From Bryobacterales bacterium (lineage in GTDB: Bacteria; Acidobacteriota; Terriglobia; Bryobacterales; Bryobacteraceae), in contig PMTR01000185.1 of the NCBI GenBank assembly GCA_003167255.1, positions 4,400 to 63,901 of the forward strand: a stretch of DNA of 59,502 nt, given 5' to 3'. The notes under the pieces are model-generated. The model was not told where the DNA came from and ran no database searches. It worked only from the letters and a program-made list of their open reading frames with translations. Shown in pieces: positions 30,589-36,694 of the stretch (position 1 is the first letter of the stretch; every line of letters begins with the position of its first letter). Both the position numbers and the translations under genes were made by a program.

Positions 30589-30996
30589 GTGTCTGTGACA
30601 AGTTCGAAATCCAACATTTCATCGGATGTGGCGGCGGCGCGGCGCAAAGCAGCGGTGATGGTGGCCGCGTGCACGGTGTTCGGCGCGGCGGCGCAGATCC
30701 TGATCAAGATCGGCATGAGCCCCGGCCATTTCGTGCCCAGCCTGGTAGGTCTGGCGACGGACGTGCCGCTGATCGCGGGGTATGCCCTGTATGGAGTCTT
30801 CACGTTGGCGATGGTGCTGGCGCTGCGCGAGGGCGAGTTGTCGATGCTGTATCCGATCATCGCGCTGACCTACGTGTGGGTGACGCTGGCCTCCTACTGG
30901 CTGCTGCACGATACTCCGAACCTGTACAAGAACCTGGGGATCATCACGATTGTGGTGGGCGTGGCGGTGCTGGGCGGCGGAGGGCGCAAGAAGTGA
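30589..30996 (+). CDS. SMR/EamA-type half-transporter, subunit 1
   Basis: 135 residues with four membrane helices and an N-terminal hydrophilic extension. GELSMLYPIIALTYVWVTLAS is a typical EamA/SMR repeat motif. GTG 30589 is used, with GTG 30595 possible. Its stop overlaps the GTG of the next gene (GTGA), and the second product has the matching motif, so the two probably form a heterodimer as ArnE/ArnF or paired SMR proteins do. Substrate unknown; lipid-linked sugars and small cations are both handled by relatives. Confidence 0.8.
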   Translation: MSVTSSKSNISSDVAAARRKAAVMVAACTVFGAAAQILIKIGMSPGHFVPSLVGLATDVPLIAGYALYGVFTLAMVLALREGELSMLYPIIALTYVWVTLASYWLLHDTPNLYKNLGIITIVVGVAVLGGGGRKK

Positions 30997-31352
30997 ACCC
31001 GGTGCTGCTGAAATCGATCCTGCTGGTGTTTGCGGCCGGCGTGGTGGGCTCGTTCGGCGCGGTGTTTCTGAAGATGGGCGCGGGACGGCTCGACGGCGGC
31101 CTGCTCAGTTTCCTGAACGGGCGGCTGGTGTTTGGCGTGGCGCTGTATCTGGGATCGTCGGTAATTTACGCGGCGGGGATACGCGGGGGACAGCTCTCGG
31201 TGCTGTACCCGATGGTCTCGCTGGGATACATCTGGACGATCGTGTGGGCGCGGCTGTTTTTCAAAGAAGCCTTCACCGGACGCAAGATGGCGGGGCTGGG
31301 GCTGATTCTGCTGGGCGTGGCGCTGGTAGGGCTGGGAGAAGCGGCGCGGTAG
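30993..31352 (+). CDS. SMR/EamA-type half-transporter, subunit 2
   Basis: 119 residues from GTG 30993, four membrane helices, with the motif GGQLSVLYPMVSLGYIWTIV matching subunit 1. No N-terminal extension. The 4-base overlap with subunit 1 implies coupled, equimolar synthesis. Convergent with the Pls-like synthetase across a repeat (31379-31477). Confidence 0.8.
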   Translation: MNPVLLKSILLVFAAGVVGSFGAVFLKMGAGRLDGGLLSFLNGRLVFGVALYLGSSVIYAAGIRGGQLSVLYPMVSLGYIWTIVWARLFFKEAFTGRKMAGLGLILLGVALVGLGEAAR

Positions 31353-31480: not shown

Positions 31481-34400
31481 TCAAGATTCCAGCCGCGTCG
31501 GCGCTCCCTCGTAGCGCAGGTTCGGCAGCAGATGCTCGTGCTTCATGATCACGCTGTGCGGGGCTACGTGCGTGCCGGCCCCGATATCGGCGCCGTAGAG
31601 CGGGACGGTGTTGGTGCCGAGCGTGGCGCGGCGGCGGATCACCACGCGGTCGATTTTCAGCACGCGGTCCTCGAAGGTGTGGGACTGGAGCGTGCTACTG
31701 ACGGTGGCGCCGTCTTCGATAGTGAGCATATCGGGATCGACCACCTGGGAGAAGCCGCCGCCCAGCACGACGCGCTTGCCGAGTTTGACGCCCATGGCGC
31801 GCAGATACCAGGAAAGCAGCAGGGTGCCTTCCAGGGCGGCCAGAGCGCCGCGGGAATACAAGGCCCAGGCAACGTAGAGGAAATCCCAGCGGCTGCACCA
31901 GCAGGACCACAGGGGATGCCGGCCGGGATGGACGCGTCCGAGGAGCCCCCACTTGAGGATCAGCACCAGAAGGCTGAGCGCGGCGCCGGCGGCGAAGGTG
32001 ACCAGCGGAACGCGCCAGAACAACAGCTCCGGCCACGGAGTGAAGGGTTCCGCCACGGCGATGGCCTGCAGCCAGAGCATGGCCACGATGGTGGGGGCAG
32101 CGGGCAGCGCGAAGCGCAGCAGCTCCCAAAAGACGCGGTTCCAGTAACGGATGAAGGATGGGTCGTAGGTGAAGCTTCGGTCAACAGTGATGATTTCCCG
32201 CACGGGTAGTTCGAAGGGCGGGTGGCCGAACCAGGAAGTGCCGGTGCGGACGAGCGTGTCGTCGGCGACTGTGCAGACCCCCAGCAGAATATTTTCGGGG
32301 AGCGATTGGCCGGAGGGGACCACGGCGTGGTTGCCGAGGAAGGTGTTCGTGGAGATGTGAGTGCGGGTGAGCGTGACGGTGCCGCGGTAGATGCGCGGGC
32401 CGGCCAGATAGATGCCGTCGGCGAAGAAACACTCGGGGCCGATGTCGACCAGCTCGGGGACGACGTCGAGGATGGTCGAAATCTCGCAGCCGGGCCCGAT
32501 GTTCATGCCGGCGAGGCGCAGCCACAGGGGCCAGAAGAGCGTGCCGCTGAGCCATTCACTGGCGGCGACGAGGATGCCGGGCTTGAGCCAGACGCGGATA
32601 TACGATGGGCTCCAGCGGCTGATGACGCCTTCCGGCACGCGCCCGAGCATGCGCATAATCAGGGCTTCGACCAGGAGCGAGAGGGGCACGGAGAGCGACG
32701 CCATGACGATGACCAGCAGGAACGGCGTGAACTCGGCGGAGGGTTGTCTCAGCCAGCGGTTGAGGCGGTCGGCGTCGACTTCGAGCGAGACCACCGCGAG
32801 GAGCGCGAGCAATTCCAGATTGAGGACGGGCAAGGTGCCGATGGCATAGCGGGACAGGACCATCCACAGGCCGTGCCAGAGCGGGGAAAGCGTACGCTCG
32901 TTCTCGGTGACGGCAGGAACGGGCGGGGCGTGGCCGGCGGGGCGGGCGGGGATGCCGTCCCAGCGTTCGCCCGAGGGGACCGTCGAGCCGGGCGGCAGCC
33001 AGGAGAGCGCGGTGAGCCAGGCGCCGGCGCCCAGACGCGCGCCCCCGGCGACACCGGCGCGGATATCGACGGTTGAGCCATGGCCCAAGGAGATGGGGGC
33101 GACCACGATGTGGCCGGCGTCAAGTTCCACCAGACCGAGCGAAGCGTCCTGGGCGATGGTGACGTCGTCGCCGATTTCGAGCAGATCCCAGCCTCCTTGG
33201 CTCATGTGGACGCCGCGATGGATGTGGACCCGCCGGCCGATGCGGGCGCCGAGCGAGCGCAGGGCGGCAAGCTGAAATTCGGTGCCCTCGATGAGCCACC
33301 AGGGAATGGCGCGCGTGAGATGCTGGACCATCCAATTGCGAACGTAGAAGCTTCCCCAAACGGGCTCCTGCCGAGGCCGGTAGGCGCCCACCAGGACACG
33401 CTTGGCCAAAACTGCGGCGGCCACCGCCAGCAAACCATAGACCACCAGGCCGGCGAAGAATACCGCGGGCGCGAGCAGGAGCAGCGGGAAGATACCCAGG
33501 CCGCGGGTGAGGCGCGGCGCGACTTCGAAGACGATGTAATAGGCGGCTGCGGCGGCTACGGCAAAGGTCAGCAGCAGCCAGGCGGCTTGGACGACGGTCG
33601 AGAAAAAGGGGCGGCCGCCGCGCGGAAGGATGGCCGGGTTTTTTTCGGCCGGCGCGGGTGGAGCGGCGCGCAGGCGCTCAGCCAGCGCGGCCACGGTGCG
33701 GGTTTCGTAGACGTCGCGGACGGCCACCGGAGTCGAGGGCGTGAGGTGGCGGAGCCGCGTGACGAGCTGCGCGGCGCGAAGGGAATCGCCACCCAGAGAG
33801 GCGAAGAAATCTTCGTGGATGGAAACGGTTTGCGGCAGGCCGAGGATTTCGCCAAAGGCGCCGGCCAGCAGGCTTTCCATGGAGTCGCGGGGTGGGGAGG
33901 CGGCGGATTCGGCGGCAGCGGCGGGTGGATCGAGGTGGGGAAGCGCGGCGCGGTTGAGCTTTCCTCCCACGGTGACCGGCAGTTTGGCGAGGAGGCCGAA
34001 ACGCGCCGGCACCATATAAGAGGGGACGATCTCCCGCAGAATCGCTTTGAGCGAGTCGGGCGATGGGGGTGTCGCGGCATCCGAGGGGATCAGAAACGCA
34101 ACCAGGGTGGGCTGGCCGCCATCGTCCTGGATTCTGCAAACTGCGGCGTGCACACCGGGACAAGCGGCCAGGTGCGCTTCGATCTCCTCCAGCTCCACGC
34201 GGTAGCCGCGGATTTTGACTTGGGAATCGATGCGGCCGTGGCAATGCAGGTTGCCGTCGGAATCGCGGTGGGCCAGGTCGCCGGAGCGATAGATGCGTCC
34301 CAGCCGGGGATGCACGGGAAATTTCTCGGCGGTGAGTTCGGGGCGTTTCCAGTAGCCGCGCGCCAGGGCGACGCCGCCAACTGCCAGCTCACCCCACTGG

Positions 34401-35449
34401 CCATCGGGCACTTCTTCCAGGCGGTCGTTGAGAATCCAGGTCTCGACGCCGCGGATGGGCTTGCCGATGTGCACCGGCGAGCCCACGCGCATGGCGGCGC
34501 GCGTGGTGCTGACGGTGCATTCGGTGGGTCCCCAATCGTTGACCATCAGTTTGCCGGCGGCCCAGAGGTCGGAGATGTCCTGGGGCAATGCCTCGCCGCC
34601 CATATAGACCAAGTCGAGTTCAGGCAGCTCGGCTTGAGGATTCTCGCAGCCGATGGCGCGCAGCAGCGTGGGTGGAGGGCAGAAGACCGTGATGCGTTCG
34701 CGGCGCAGCCAGCCGACCAGGTCGGGGCCGAGGCGGGCGGTCCCCTCATCCATCATGACCAGGGTGGCGCCCGCCGAGAAGGCCAGCCAGATTTCTTCGA
34801 CGGAGGAATCGTAGGAGGAGGAGGAGTTTTGAGAAACGCGGGCGTCCGGCGTGAGGCGGAATTCGACCAGGTCGGAGGCCACCAGGTTCGAGACGCTGCG
34901 GTGCTCGATCATGACGGCTTTGGGACGGCCGGTTGTGCCGGAGGTGTAGATGGTGTAGGCGAGGCTCTCGGGCGTAAGCCAGGCGGGCGCGGGCGGTGCG
35001 CCGGCATGCGGGAGCGCGGCGGTGACGTCGAACTGGGGGGCCGCGCCGAAATGGCCGGTGCGGGCGCGATCCAGGCCGGCGGCGTCGGTGAGCAAGGCGA
35101 CCGCGGCGGAGTCTTCGAGGATCTCGCGAATGCGGGCGTCGGGAAAAGCCGGGTCGATACAGGTATAGGCGGCGCCGGCGTGGAGGACGCCGAGTTGCGC
35201 TGCGTACAGGTGGTGGGACTGGCGCGGCAACAGGATAGCGACGACGCACTCGCCGGTAACGATGGCGCCTAGCAGCGCGGCGATCTGGTGGGATTCGTGA
35301 GCGAGTTTCGCATAGGTGACGAAGCCGCGGACGGGGCGGCCGCTATCGGGCGGAACCTCGACGGCGATTCTCGCAGGCCAGCGCCGGGCGGCGTTGTCGA
35401 AGAAGTGGTGCAGCAGCAGAGGGCTGTCGTGGAGTGGTGCGTCAGTCAT
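31481..35449 (-). CDS. Pls-type membrane nonribosomal peptide synthetase (putative poly-amino acid synthase)
   Basis: 1322 residues from ATG 35449 (a TTG at 35470 is also open). Order: adenylation domain (about 10-510) with YTSGTTGRPKAVM, the A4 block YDSSVEE, NDWGPTE, YRSGDL, and A10 GGKLNRAAL; carrier domain with phosphopantetheine Ser near 554 in LGGDSLRAAQ; then about six membrane helices in pairs, interleaved with three left-handed beta-helix (hexapeptide-repeat) domains. This A-T-TM-C1-C2-C3 layout is that of epsilon-poly-L-lysine synthetase (Pls; TIGR02353-type terminal region). There is no condensation or thioesterase domain, so it is not an ordinary NRPS module. By-eye alignment to GrsA gives pocket residues D-S-E-C-V-M-D-V-S-K; Glu and Asp in the pocket suggest a basic amino acid. 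The product is unproven. Confidence 0.85.
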   Translation of the reverse strand: MTDAPLHDSPLLLHHFFDNAARRWPARIAVEVPPDSGRPVRGFVTYAKLAHESHQIAALLGAIVTGECVVAILLPRQSHHLYAAQLGVLHAGAAYTCIDPAFPDARIREILEDSAAVALLTDAAGLDRARTGHFGAAPQFDVTAALPHAGAPPAPAWLTPESLAYTIYTSGTTGRPKAVMIEHRSVSNLVASDLVEFRLTPDARVSQNSSSSYDSSVEEIWLAFSAGATLVMMDEGTARLGPDLVGWLRRERITVFCPPPTLLRAIGCENPQAELPELDLVYMGGEALPQDISDLWAAGKLMVNDWGPTECTVSTTRAAMRVGSPVHIGKPIRGVETWILNDRLEEVPDGQWGELAVGGVALARGYWKRPELTAEKFPVHPRLGRIYRSGDLAHRDSDGNLHCHGRIDSQVKIRGYRVELEEIEAHLAACPGVHAAVCRIQDDGGQPTLVAFLIPSDAATPPSPDSLKAILREIVPSYMVPARFGLLAKLPVTVGGKLNRAALPHLDPPAAAAESAASPPRDSMESLLAGAFGEILGLPQTVSIHEDFFASLGGDSLRAAQLVTRLRHLTPSTPVAVRDVYETRTVAALAERLRAAPPAPAEKNPAILPRGGRPFFSTVVQAAWLLLTFAVAAAAAYYIVFEVAPRLTRGLGIFPLLLLAPAVFFAGLVVYGLLAVAAAVLAKRVLVGAYRPRQEPVWGSFYVRNWMVQHLTRAIPWWLIEGTEFQLAALRSLGARIGRRVHIHRGVHMSQGGWDLLEIGDDVTIAQDASLGLVELDAGHIVVAPISLGHGSTVDIRAGVAGGARLGAGAWLTALSWLPPGSTVPSGERWDGIPARPAGHAPPVPAVTENERTLSPLWHGLWMVLSRYAIGTLPVLNLELLALLAVVSLEVDADRLNRWLRQPSAEFTPFLLVIVMASLSVPLSLLVEALIMRMLGRVPEGVISRWSPSYIRVWLKPGILVAASEWLSGTLFWPLWLRLAGMNIGPGCEISTILDVVPELVDIGPECFFADGIYLAGPRIYRGTVTLTRTHISTNTFLGNHAVVPSGQSLPENILLGVCTVADDTLVRTGTSWFGHPPFELPVREIITVDRSFTYDPSFIRYWNRVFWELLRFALPAAPTIVAMLWLQAIAVAEPFTPWPELLFWRVPLVTFAAGAALSLLVLILKWGLLGRVHPGRHPLWSCWCSRWDFLYVAWALYSRGALAALEGTLLLSWYLRAMGVKLGKRVVLGGGFSQVVDPDMLTIEDGATVSSTLQSHTFEDRVLKIDRVVIRRRATLGTNTVPLYGADIGAGTHVAPHSVIMKHEHLLPNLRYEGAPTRLES

Positions 35450-35557
35450 CGCTGGACAGTCTGCCGGCAAGGTGGCGAAGAAAGTGAATCGGGGATCCGG
35501 ATGGCGCGCACAAGTCGTATTGTAATCGGGTATTGGGTCAGTGTGAGCTTCCCGATT

Positions 35558-36694
35558 TCACTCTCTGCCGCGCCGGACTATGAACGGGTCTGGAACCCGC
35601 TTCGGCTCTGTAAAGCGAGAGCGGAGATCCTTCAGGACTTCAGAAGCTTCGTATGATCGCCACTTCTTTTCCCCCGAGGAGACCAGGAGTCCGCGATCCA
35701 CCAGCAGCTTCAAGTCTTTGGTAGCCACCTGAACGGATATGCCGGCAACGCTTCGATATGCCGCATTTCGAACCCGCAGACCGGACGCCGCATCCGAAAG
35801 CGCAAGAATAGTTCGCTCGGGCAACTTGCGTTTCTTGACTTCCACCTCAAGCGCATCCCACGTTTGCTGTACCTCGCGGGACCTTCGTAATATTGTAGTG
35901 GCTTGCCGGAAATGCGCCGTCAGACAAAACCTGACCCAAGGACGGGCGTCACGGCGCGGGCTCCAGTTGCCGGCTCCCACATTGAGTAGAACAACGTAGT
36001 ATTCGCGGGTATTACGACCCAGGTATTCCTCAATGCTGGAGAATTCGGGCGCCAAAGTGCCAGCCCGTGCCAGAATTAGAGATTGCAGGCAGCGCGCCAT
36101 TCTTCCGTTGCCGTCCGAAAAAGGGTGAATCATCACAAAGTTCAGATGTCCCATGGCTGCGCGGACCATGCTCGCGGTTGAATTGTCGGGCTGATTCAGG
36201 GCCGCCGCCAACTGGACCATTAGACCGGGAACGAGTTGTGCATCCGGCGCTTTGTATACAACCTCCTTTTTGGCCTCGTCAACGACTTGAATAGGCCCCG
36301 GCCGCCACCGCCCGGGGTTTTTGCTCAGATCGTATTCCATCATCATGAAATGAAGACTTCGTAGAAAGTCGGTGGAGTGCTTGAAATGTGGGTCCGCTGC
36401 AAGCTGCAACACGTACGTCATGGCGGAGCGGTATCCGCGCACCGCTTTCCAGTCCACGTCAGCCGCTTCAAGGGGCTCGTCGCCTTCAACTGCGGCGATT
36501 GCATCTTCGACCGTGACATTGAATCCCTCAATGGAGTTCGATGCCCTGATGGCACGAGCGAATAGCGCTCTACGCAGCAGCCCAGGCCATCTCTTGGGAG
36601 TCTGTATTGAATATCTCAAAGTTTGCTTGAGTTCGTCGATGCGAGCGATCACGTCGATCTCTAGTCCGTCGAGCTTTGGAGTCTCAAAAAGCAT
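35558..36694 (-). CDS. Fic-domain adenylyltransferase with N-terminal autoinhibition and winged-helix tail
   Basis: 378 residues. The catalytic motif HPFSDGNGRMAR is complete at residues 190-201 (HxFx(D/E)GNGRxxR). SNSIEG at 52-57 is the inhibitory [S/T]xxxE[G/N] motif, so it is a class II, self-inhibited Fic protein. The C-terminal ~90 residues read as a winged helix (AGISVQVATKDLKLLVDRGL). Fic proteins of this kind AMPylate target proteins; the target is unknown. Palindromes overlap its start codon (36693-36763), suggesting autoregulation through the winged helix. It is not part of the Pls gene's operon as far as I can tell (gap 108 bases). Confidence 0.9.
   Translation of the reverse strand: MLFETPKLDGLEIDVIARIDELKQTLRYSIQTPKRWPGLLRRALFARAIRASNSIEGFNVTVEDAIAAVEGDEPLEAADVDWKAVRGYRSAMTYVLQLAADPHFKHSTDFLRSLHFMMMEYDLSKNPGRWRPGPIQVVDEAKKEVVYKAPDAQLVPGLMVQLAAALNQPDNSTASMVRAAMGHLNFVMIHPFSDGNGRMARCLQSLILARAGTLAPEFSSIEEYLGRNTREYYVVLLNVGAGNWSPRRDARPWVRFCLTAHFRQATTILRRSREVQQTWDALEVEVKKRKLPERTILALSDAASGLRVRNAAYRSVAGISVQVATKDLKLLVDRGLLVSSGEKKWRSYEASEVLKDLRSRFTEPKRVPDPFIVRRGRE

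Follow-up and report, generated by a model that had tools for sequence, protein, structure and literature searches.

The window analyzed here, a stretch of 59,502 nucleotides (nt) from contig PMTR01000185.1 of a Bryobacterales bacterium (GenBank assembly GCA_003167255.1), carries on its minus strand a gene (31481..35449) that is real, is probably functional, and encodes a variant of the Pls/PosA kind of amino acid polymer synthetase. The enzyme most likely makes or transfers an arginine-like cationic amino acid. The fuller explanation that we prefer, and to which we give an even chance, is that of a single-module, membrane-bound enzyme from a divergent clade of the Pls/PosA superfamily that polymerizes an arginine-like monomer at the membrane into a short cationic homopolymer. 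We named this clade "DSE" from its pocket code. The features on which the explanation draws, taken from sequence or from models, are domain order, the carrier serine, the pocket residues, clade membership, predicted fold, a conserved motif, and purifying selection.

The open reading frame (ORF) is uninterrupted, begins with ATG, and encodes 1322 amino acids (aa); an alternative in-frame TTG start at 35470 would yield 1329 aa. Three domains were delineated, all on the minus strand: (i) an adenylation (A) domain at residues 17-503 (33941..35401), with matches to Pfam AMP-binding (1.4e-65, residues 17-367), AMP-binding_C (1.1e-6, residues 422-497), and TIGR01733 (8.2e-108); (ii) a peptidyl carrier protein (PCP) domain at residues 528-593 (33671..33868; PP-binding, 1.1e-10), in which the phosphopantetheine-accepting Ser556 is present; and (iii) a terminal polymerization-type domain at residues 620-1317 (31499..33592), delimited by TIGR02353, hydropathy, a structural model, and fold matches. 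Neither a condensation nor a thioesterase family was found in the 1322-aa protein (Pfam, E ≤ 0.001). Thus, the order of A domain, carrier, and membrane domain with three units, proposed in an initial annotation based on the sequence alone, agrees with Pfam, TIGR02353, and hydropathy. The epsilon-poly-L-lysine synthetase Pls of Streptomyces has the same architecture, and its A domain (7wew) matches that of the window protein at 6.6e-55. Likewise, the delta-poly-L-ornithine synthetase PosA of Acinetobacter baumannii shares with the window protein the order of A, PCP, and terminal domains as well as Asp235 and Glu239 of the pocket (PMC10522769). Relative to the 90% identical gene at locus L023, dN/dS was 0.22 overall (A domain, 0.19; carrier, 0.26; terminal domain, 0.24), indicating that the synthetase gene is under purifying selection. 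The genome also contains two matches to the Pfam ACPS family of phosphopantetheinyl transferases.

TIGR02353, the model of the Pls/PosA terminal domain, aligned its positions 2-694 (of 695) with residues 620-1317 (E 2.7e-107, 359.9 bits), and the isolated terminal domain scored 362.5 bits (E 4.3e-108). The Pls match anticipated for residues ~560-1322 was therefore recovered over the full length of the model, with the refinement that it starts near residues 614-620 and that residues 528-593 form the carrier. Weak matches to this model are widespread, with 13 of 14 control genomes giving one at E ≤ 0.001 (one of these above the curated cut-off), but at E ≤ 1e-60 a match occurred in just 1 of the 14. 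Hydropathy revealed three pairs of hydrophobic stretches between residues 614 and 1173. An AlphaFold2 model of residues 600-1322, built on a 47-row alignment, reached a mean pLDDT of 90.5 and a pTM of 0.90, and its fold matches were hexapeptide (left-handed beta-helix) acyltransferases (top match, Z 12.4 over 145 residues, 3.0 Å); the best 50 fold matches included no solved structure spanning an entire terminal domain of the Pls type. Pfam Hexapep matched residues 1269-1301 below threshold. Consistent with the three beta-helix-like units suggested initially, the terminal domain is thus predicted to alternate three membrane-helix pairs with three left-handed beta-helix units, and the published model of PosA likewise has three helix pairs and three beta-helices (PMC10522769).

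Across the superfamily, conservation on both sides of our comparison (≥95% of 58 DSE rows and ≥90% of 25 other rows) extends to 46 positions of the terminal domain, and the window protein retains all 46, among them E989, D1011, N1040, K1166, D1240, Q1255, H1257, and D1261. In unit 3, Q1255-x-H1257-x-F1259-x-D1261 (31667..31687, minus strand), of which Q, H, F, and D are conserved in the DSE clade and in synthetases of the lysine, ornithine, and diaminobutyrate (Dab) types, is a candidate catalytic motif judging from its conservation. Within it, H1257 would be the likeliest catalytic residue, an assignment made by analogy to hexapeptide acyltransferases.

The same fold matches bear on a nonpolymerizing function, in which the terminal domain would pass a single aminoacyl group from the carrier on to an acceptor in the membrane (e.g., a lipid or glycan) in the manner of a hexapeptide acyltransferase. 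The units have single-transfer acyltransferases as their best structural neighbors, and the NCBI model of WcaF-type acetyltransferases matches 27 of 47 clade members at E ≤ 1e-10. However, the same fold appears in the model of PosA, which is a polymerizing enzyme (PMC10522769), and the residues conserved superfamily-wide are kept in the window protein, so we consider single transfer unlikely.

To read the adenylation pocket, we anchored the code columns on GrsA motifs and their position numbers. The substrate-code residues, positions 235-331 (34508..34810, minus strand), are D214, S215, E218, C257, Y282, G284, D305, V313, and S314, giving the code DSECYGDVSK, in which E218 and D305 correspond to Glu239 and Asp322. 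Applied to locus L011, the same columns return the code DMEHNGTVSK exactly as printed for PosA, and in most clade members they give DSECYGGVTK, the code of a Bdellovibrionales protein (PMC10522769). The two acidic pocket residues assigned by eye at the outset were hence correctly placed. All 57 clade rows whose code could be read have Glu239, and the PosA variant E221A is inactive, making the pocket glutamate at the Glu239 position essential (PMC10522769). Asp322 and Ser331 of the window protein are both absent from its sister L023, which has Gly322. Elsewhere among the rows, Asp322 occurs only in the planctomycete loci L025, L029, L030, and L031; since it is missing from the nearest relatives L023 and L109, we rejected it as a general pocket key and regard it, from the aligned codes, as lineage-specific. 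It might provide a second contact to a guanidinium group.

The monomer assignment depends on one published assay of an A domain. Bdello_A (Bdellovibrionales, OFZ39577.1), whose code is the clade consensus DSECYGGVTK, showed modest activity with L-Arg and, as described in the main text of that report, none with the diamino acids of known members (PMC10522769). Lysine, ornithine, and Dab are accordingly disfavored for the DSE clade and are, on the basis of this same-code A domain, unlikely as its monomer; an arginine-like cation fits best. From the acidic pocket, the initial annotation had deduced a cationic substrate, which probably holds, and had offered lysine, ornithine, or Dab among the candidates, which this assay and the separate clade do not favor.

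The tree, inferred by a quick search from 83 rows of the terminal domain alone (i.e., without the code columns), points in the same direction. A single 58-row clade (SH-aLRT 100), set off by a stem of 1.48 changes per column, holds all 57 rows with DSE codes plus L059, whose code is truncated. Outside it lie the rows with lysine (DAESIGTV[VI]K), ornithine (DMEHNGTV[ST]K), Dab/diaminopropionate (Dap) (DFE...), and beta-lysine (DGES...) type codes. The Pls code is of the lysine type and the PosA code DMEHNGTVSK belongs to rows outside the clade, in contrast to the window code. The deepest rooting is unsure because a long-branch Dab/Dap-type row (L122) stands alone at the midpoint root. We left 27 identifiers out of the tree and of the conservation count, namely, truncated proteins, duplicates, the mis-hits L078, L079, and L108, and also L019 and L020, which are long, with 27% identity and the code DGSFVATTDK. 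The most familiar alternative, a Pls-type synthetase that polymerizes lysine, ornithine, or Dab through isopeptide bonds, accounts for the architecture and the acidic pocket, and Glu239 is common to lysine-, ornithine-, and Dab-type codes; yet every row with a lysine, ornithine, Dab/Dap, or beta-lysine code is separated from the clade by the long branch, and Bdello_A, bearing the clade code, was inactive on the diamino acids of known members (PMC10522769). We therefore regard that alternative as improbable.

According to the explanation we prefer, the A domain would adenylate a cationic amino acid that is not lysine, ornithine, Dab, or Dap but arginine or an arginine-like compound, which would be held by Glu239 and, in the window lineage, by Asp322 as well, and would then be attached to the carrier at Ser556. 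Arranged as in a trimeric hexapeptide acyltransferase and sitting on six membrane helices, the three fused beta-helix units would add one monomer after another to the growing chain, H1257 of unit 3 most likely acting as the catalytic base, and a short cationic homopolymer would form at the membrane. We infer the substrate class, the catalytic residue, export, and iterative polymerization, the last by analogy with Pls and PosA.

Several observations weigh against this explanation. (i) The score of 359.9 bits lies below the curated TIGR02353 cut-off of 423.1 bits (NCBIfam, equivalog_domain), which is passed by 8 of 9 actinobacterial genomes with matches. We accordingly filed the window gene as a member of a divergent sister clade and not as an equivalog, so that of the Pls-type identity first assigned to it the architecture stands, with a sub-cut-off score and a separate, long-stemmed clade on the other side. 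(ii) One A domain of the DSECYGGVTK code has been assayed, its arginine activity was modest, and its authors suspect another, larger substrate or analogue (PMC10522769). (iii) Bdello_A was placed in the DSE clade by its printed code alone, and the window code departs from the assayed one by two changes, Gly322Asp and Thr331Ser. (iv) Among the matches listed from open-license PubMed Central (PMC) papers, there was no product or polymer of the DSE clade. (v) As arginine has no free omega-amine, an isopeptide polymer of the Pls/PosA style would not form by the usual route.

A scan of species genomes yielded 57 loci, of which L078 and L079 are of another type. The remaining relatives are 45-60% identical to the window protein over the aligned part, except for L023 (a Bryobacterales metagenome-assembled genome, 89-90%) and L074 (a C-terminal fragment, 67%), and according to record titles or tree labels they fall in Acidobacteriota, Planctomycetota, Verrucomicrobiota, Actinomycetota, Armatimonadota, and Pseudomonadota. 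The distribution of the clade is sporadic. A Pls/PosA-like terminal domain (E ≤ 1e-20) was detected in 17 of 396 Acidobacteriota genomes, in 19 copies; 7 copies in six genomes are of the DSE type, another 7 (L010, L012, L013, L015, L016, L017, and L022) have DAESIGTVIK, a code of the lysine type, and the remaining five show DLESIGTVIK, DGESVSAVNK, DMEHNGTVSK, and, twice, DGSFVATTDK. Within the window's own order, 4 of 120 genomes had a match, two of them of the DSE type with the window included. The view that such an enzyme is unusual in an acidobacterium thus holds only in part, and the belief that no acidobacterial cationic homopolymer had been reported agrees with the open-license PMC papers, where none was found among the matches listed. 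As candidates for acidobacterial epsilon-poly-lysine synthesis, the seven lysine-type loci are better than the window gene.

TIGR02353 matched 47 of 47 clade terminal domains scanned (best E 9.9e-122), and, extrapolating from the bit score and E value of the isolated window domain, we expect even the best of them to fall under the cut-off; a Kutzneria copy (L129) scored 362.6 bits. Because it lies under the Pls/PosA cut-off, annotation can easily overlook the clade. Four plasmid-borne Streptomyces genes of the DSE kind (codes read for two) are annotated "amino acid adenylation domain-containing protein"; an ornithine-type and a Dab/Dap-type plasmid gene are annotated as Pls/PosA. In Kutzneria viridogrisea (locus L036), six TIGR02353 matches bring lysine-type, Dab/Dap-type, and DSE codes together in one genome. 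To our knowledge, only few isopeptide-type cationic polymers are known. With one main pocket across six phyla, and with none of the known diamino-acid monomers apparently serving it, the DSE clade offers a concrete target in the search for a further one.

A second lead on the monomer comes from the clade's gene neighborhoods. Of 55 judgeable clade loci, 22, belonging to several phyla, have a small SET-domain gene immediately upstream of the synthetase and in the same orientation (22 of 56 if the window is counted as a SET-less locus), with an estimated distance of -24 to +150 nt between the SET end and the synthetase start in 21 of them; L059 has no estimate, as its top-scoring alignment starts only at residue 240. 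Near-duplicates occur among the 55 judged loci (L130/L131, L061/L105, and the Kutzneria set); 4 of the 59 clade loci (L023, L044, L046, and L056) were left out for upstream flanks of <700 bases, and loci with unreadable codes, L059 excepted, lie outside the 59. The SET model comprises 188 positions, and Pfam SET was found in 12 of 12 scanned proteins, none of which matched an NCBIfam model. The closest solved relative of the clade SET protein is BurB (9l4t/9l4v), a SET-domain methionine S-methyltransferase that converts methionine to S-methylmethionine (PMC12542666). BurB ranked first by profile (65.7 versus 52.5 bits for the next), by Foldseek (3.2e-10 versus 1.3e-7), and by VIA-align (Z 13.4 and 13.2 versus 11.5); its identity to the clade protein is ~24%, and each of the three rankings has histone-lysine methyltransferases close behind.

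This adjacency is a hint that the monomer or product of the clade may be methylated or a sulfonium compound. More specifically, the clade could use S-methylmethionine or another methylated cationic monomer, or could methylate its product, with the SET protein making the monomer or modifying the polymer, so that a polysulfonium or methylated polymer would result. The 22 adjacent loci and the first rank of BurB on three measures fit such a scheme; S-methylmethionine is itself a cation, and the main text of PMC10522769 does not mention it. Against it, identity of ~24% to BurB does not fix the substrate, with histone-lysine methyltransferases so near, and the pocket code is independent of the SET gene: 25 of 33 SET-less judged loci keep DSECYGGVTK, and in a whole-genome search of 35 clade genomes, in which all 5 positive controls matched, 17 of the other 30 had no match at E 0.001, with 10 giving weak matches only (best 24 to 88 bits). 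Pocket variants did occur in 8 of 33 SET-less versus 0 of 22 SET loci (Fisher p 0.016), but this excess vanished once relatedness was allowed for (sign test, median p 0.5), and a correlation between the SET gene and pocket constraint was rejected. The window genome (98.85% complete) gave no match to the SET alignment at E ≤ 1 or to PF00856 at E ≤ 0.001, and hence no BurB-like gene by these searches, which do match in other clade genomes. The SET lead consequently bears on the clade, and on the window only indirectly. Overall, we have little confidence in a methylated monomer or product.

A combined scheme strikes us as similarly doubtful. Here, the DSE clade would polymerize a methylated or sulfonium amino acid (S-methylmethionine supplied by the operon's SET enzyme, or methylated arginine or lysine), and the SET-less window member, with its second pocket acid, would have shifted to a plain guanidinium and a poly-arginine-like product. 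If true, a methylated or sulfonium polymer would be a natural polymer class absent from open-license PMC papers, among the matches listed, where no SET-linked Pls-like enzyme appeared either. The SET-synthetase operon is in any case a direct, testable lead to the monomer left open by the published assay of the related A domain.

Close SET homologues (>220 bits) were present in three of the 30 clade genomes without an adjacent SET gene (G158, G407, and G408) on a contig other than that of the synthetase; in G158 and G408, the neighbors of the homologue are other genes. In larger genome searches, in which 8-11 candidates per genome were scored, SET genes at E ≤ 1e-25 were found in 1 of 288 genomes of the phylum of G423 and in 2 of 396 Acidobacteriota genomes. 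Two of these three SET-positive genomes, G423 and G158, carry a DSE synthetase. As G423 had been chosen as a center, the co-occurrence is weak evidence, and the real evidence is operon adjacency. No close SET homologue was found in the DSE genome G413 or in 5 of 6 DSE Acidobacteriota genomes. A further acidobacterial genome (G010) holds two SET genes (L142 and L143) that score ~124 bits against the operon SET model, and it has no DSE synthetase match.

As for the window's own neighborhood, the initial annotation had attached meaning to a pair of SMR-like exporter genes and a Fic gene beside the synthetase, an interpretation that our comparison did not sustain. The SMR-like pair (135 and 115 aa; 30589-30996 and 31005-31352, plus strand) matches EamA below threshold and is convergent with the synthetase; the Fic gene (35558-36694, minus strand) is a clear match to its family, with a GC content of 0.558 versus 0.675 for the synthetase. 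We searched both SMR proteins, Fic, Phd, LepB, ManC, and an RND protein by tblastn (E ≤ 1e-5) against 64 loci of relatives, with flanks of unequal and in some cases short length (the L137 gene lies near one end). Neither SMR nor Fic was found in any of the 64 loci under these settings, and both were rejected as partners of the synthetase; Phd matched only in L023, and the RND protein only in L029 and L040. In L023, the Phd-like antitoxin gene adjoins the synthetase and Fic is missing from between them, so that Fic at the window locus is a recent insertion or was lost from L023. The next downstream genes of L023 are, by eye, a response regulator and a histidine kinase.

Comparing flanking ORFs all against all yielded, besides SET, no clear partner in at least five loci; the other large flank clusters are, by eye, shadow reading frames or two-component, ABC, and MFS families. 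A membrane acyltransferase of the HGSNAT/DUF418 type lies directly 3' of the synthetase in three loci from three phyla (L028:13795-15258, by blast cluster; L075:9130-10230 and L076:13995-15128, by Pfam). Similarly, on the Rhodococcus plasmid pLRE138, a heparan-alpha-glucosaminide N-acetyltransferase is annotated two genes after a Pls/PosA gene. Acyltransferases of this type may acylate the synthetase product. Lastly, the planctomycete loci L026, L029, L030, and L031 share two conserved upstream ORFs that resemble, by eye, an ECF-type sigma factor and its anti-sigma partner.

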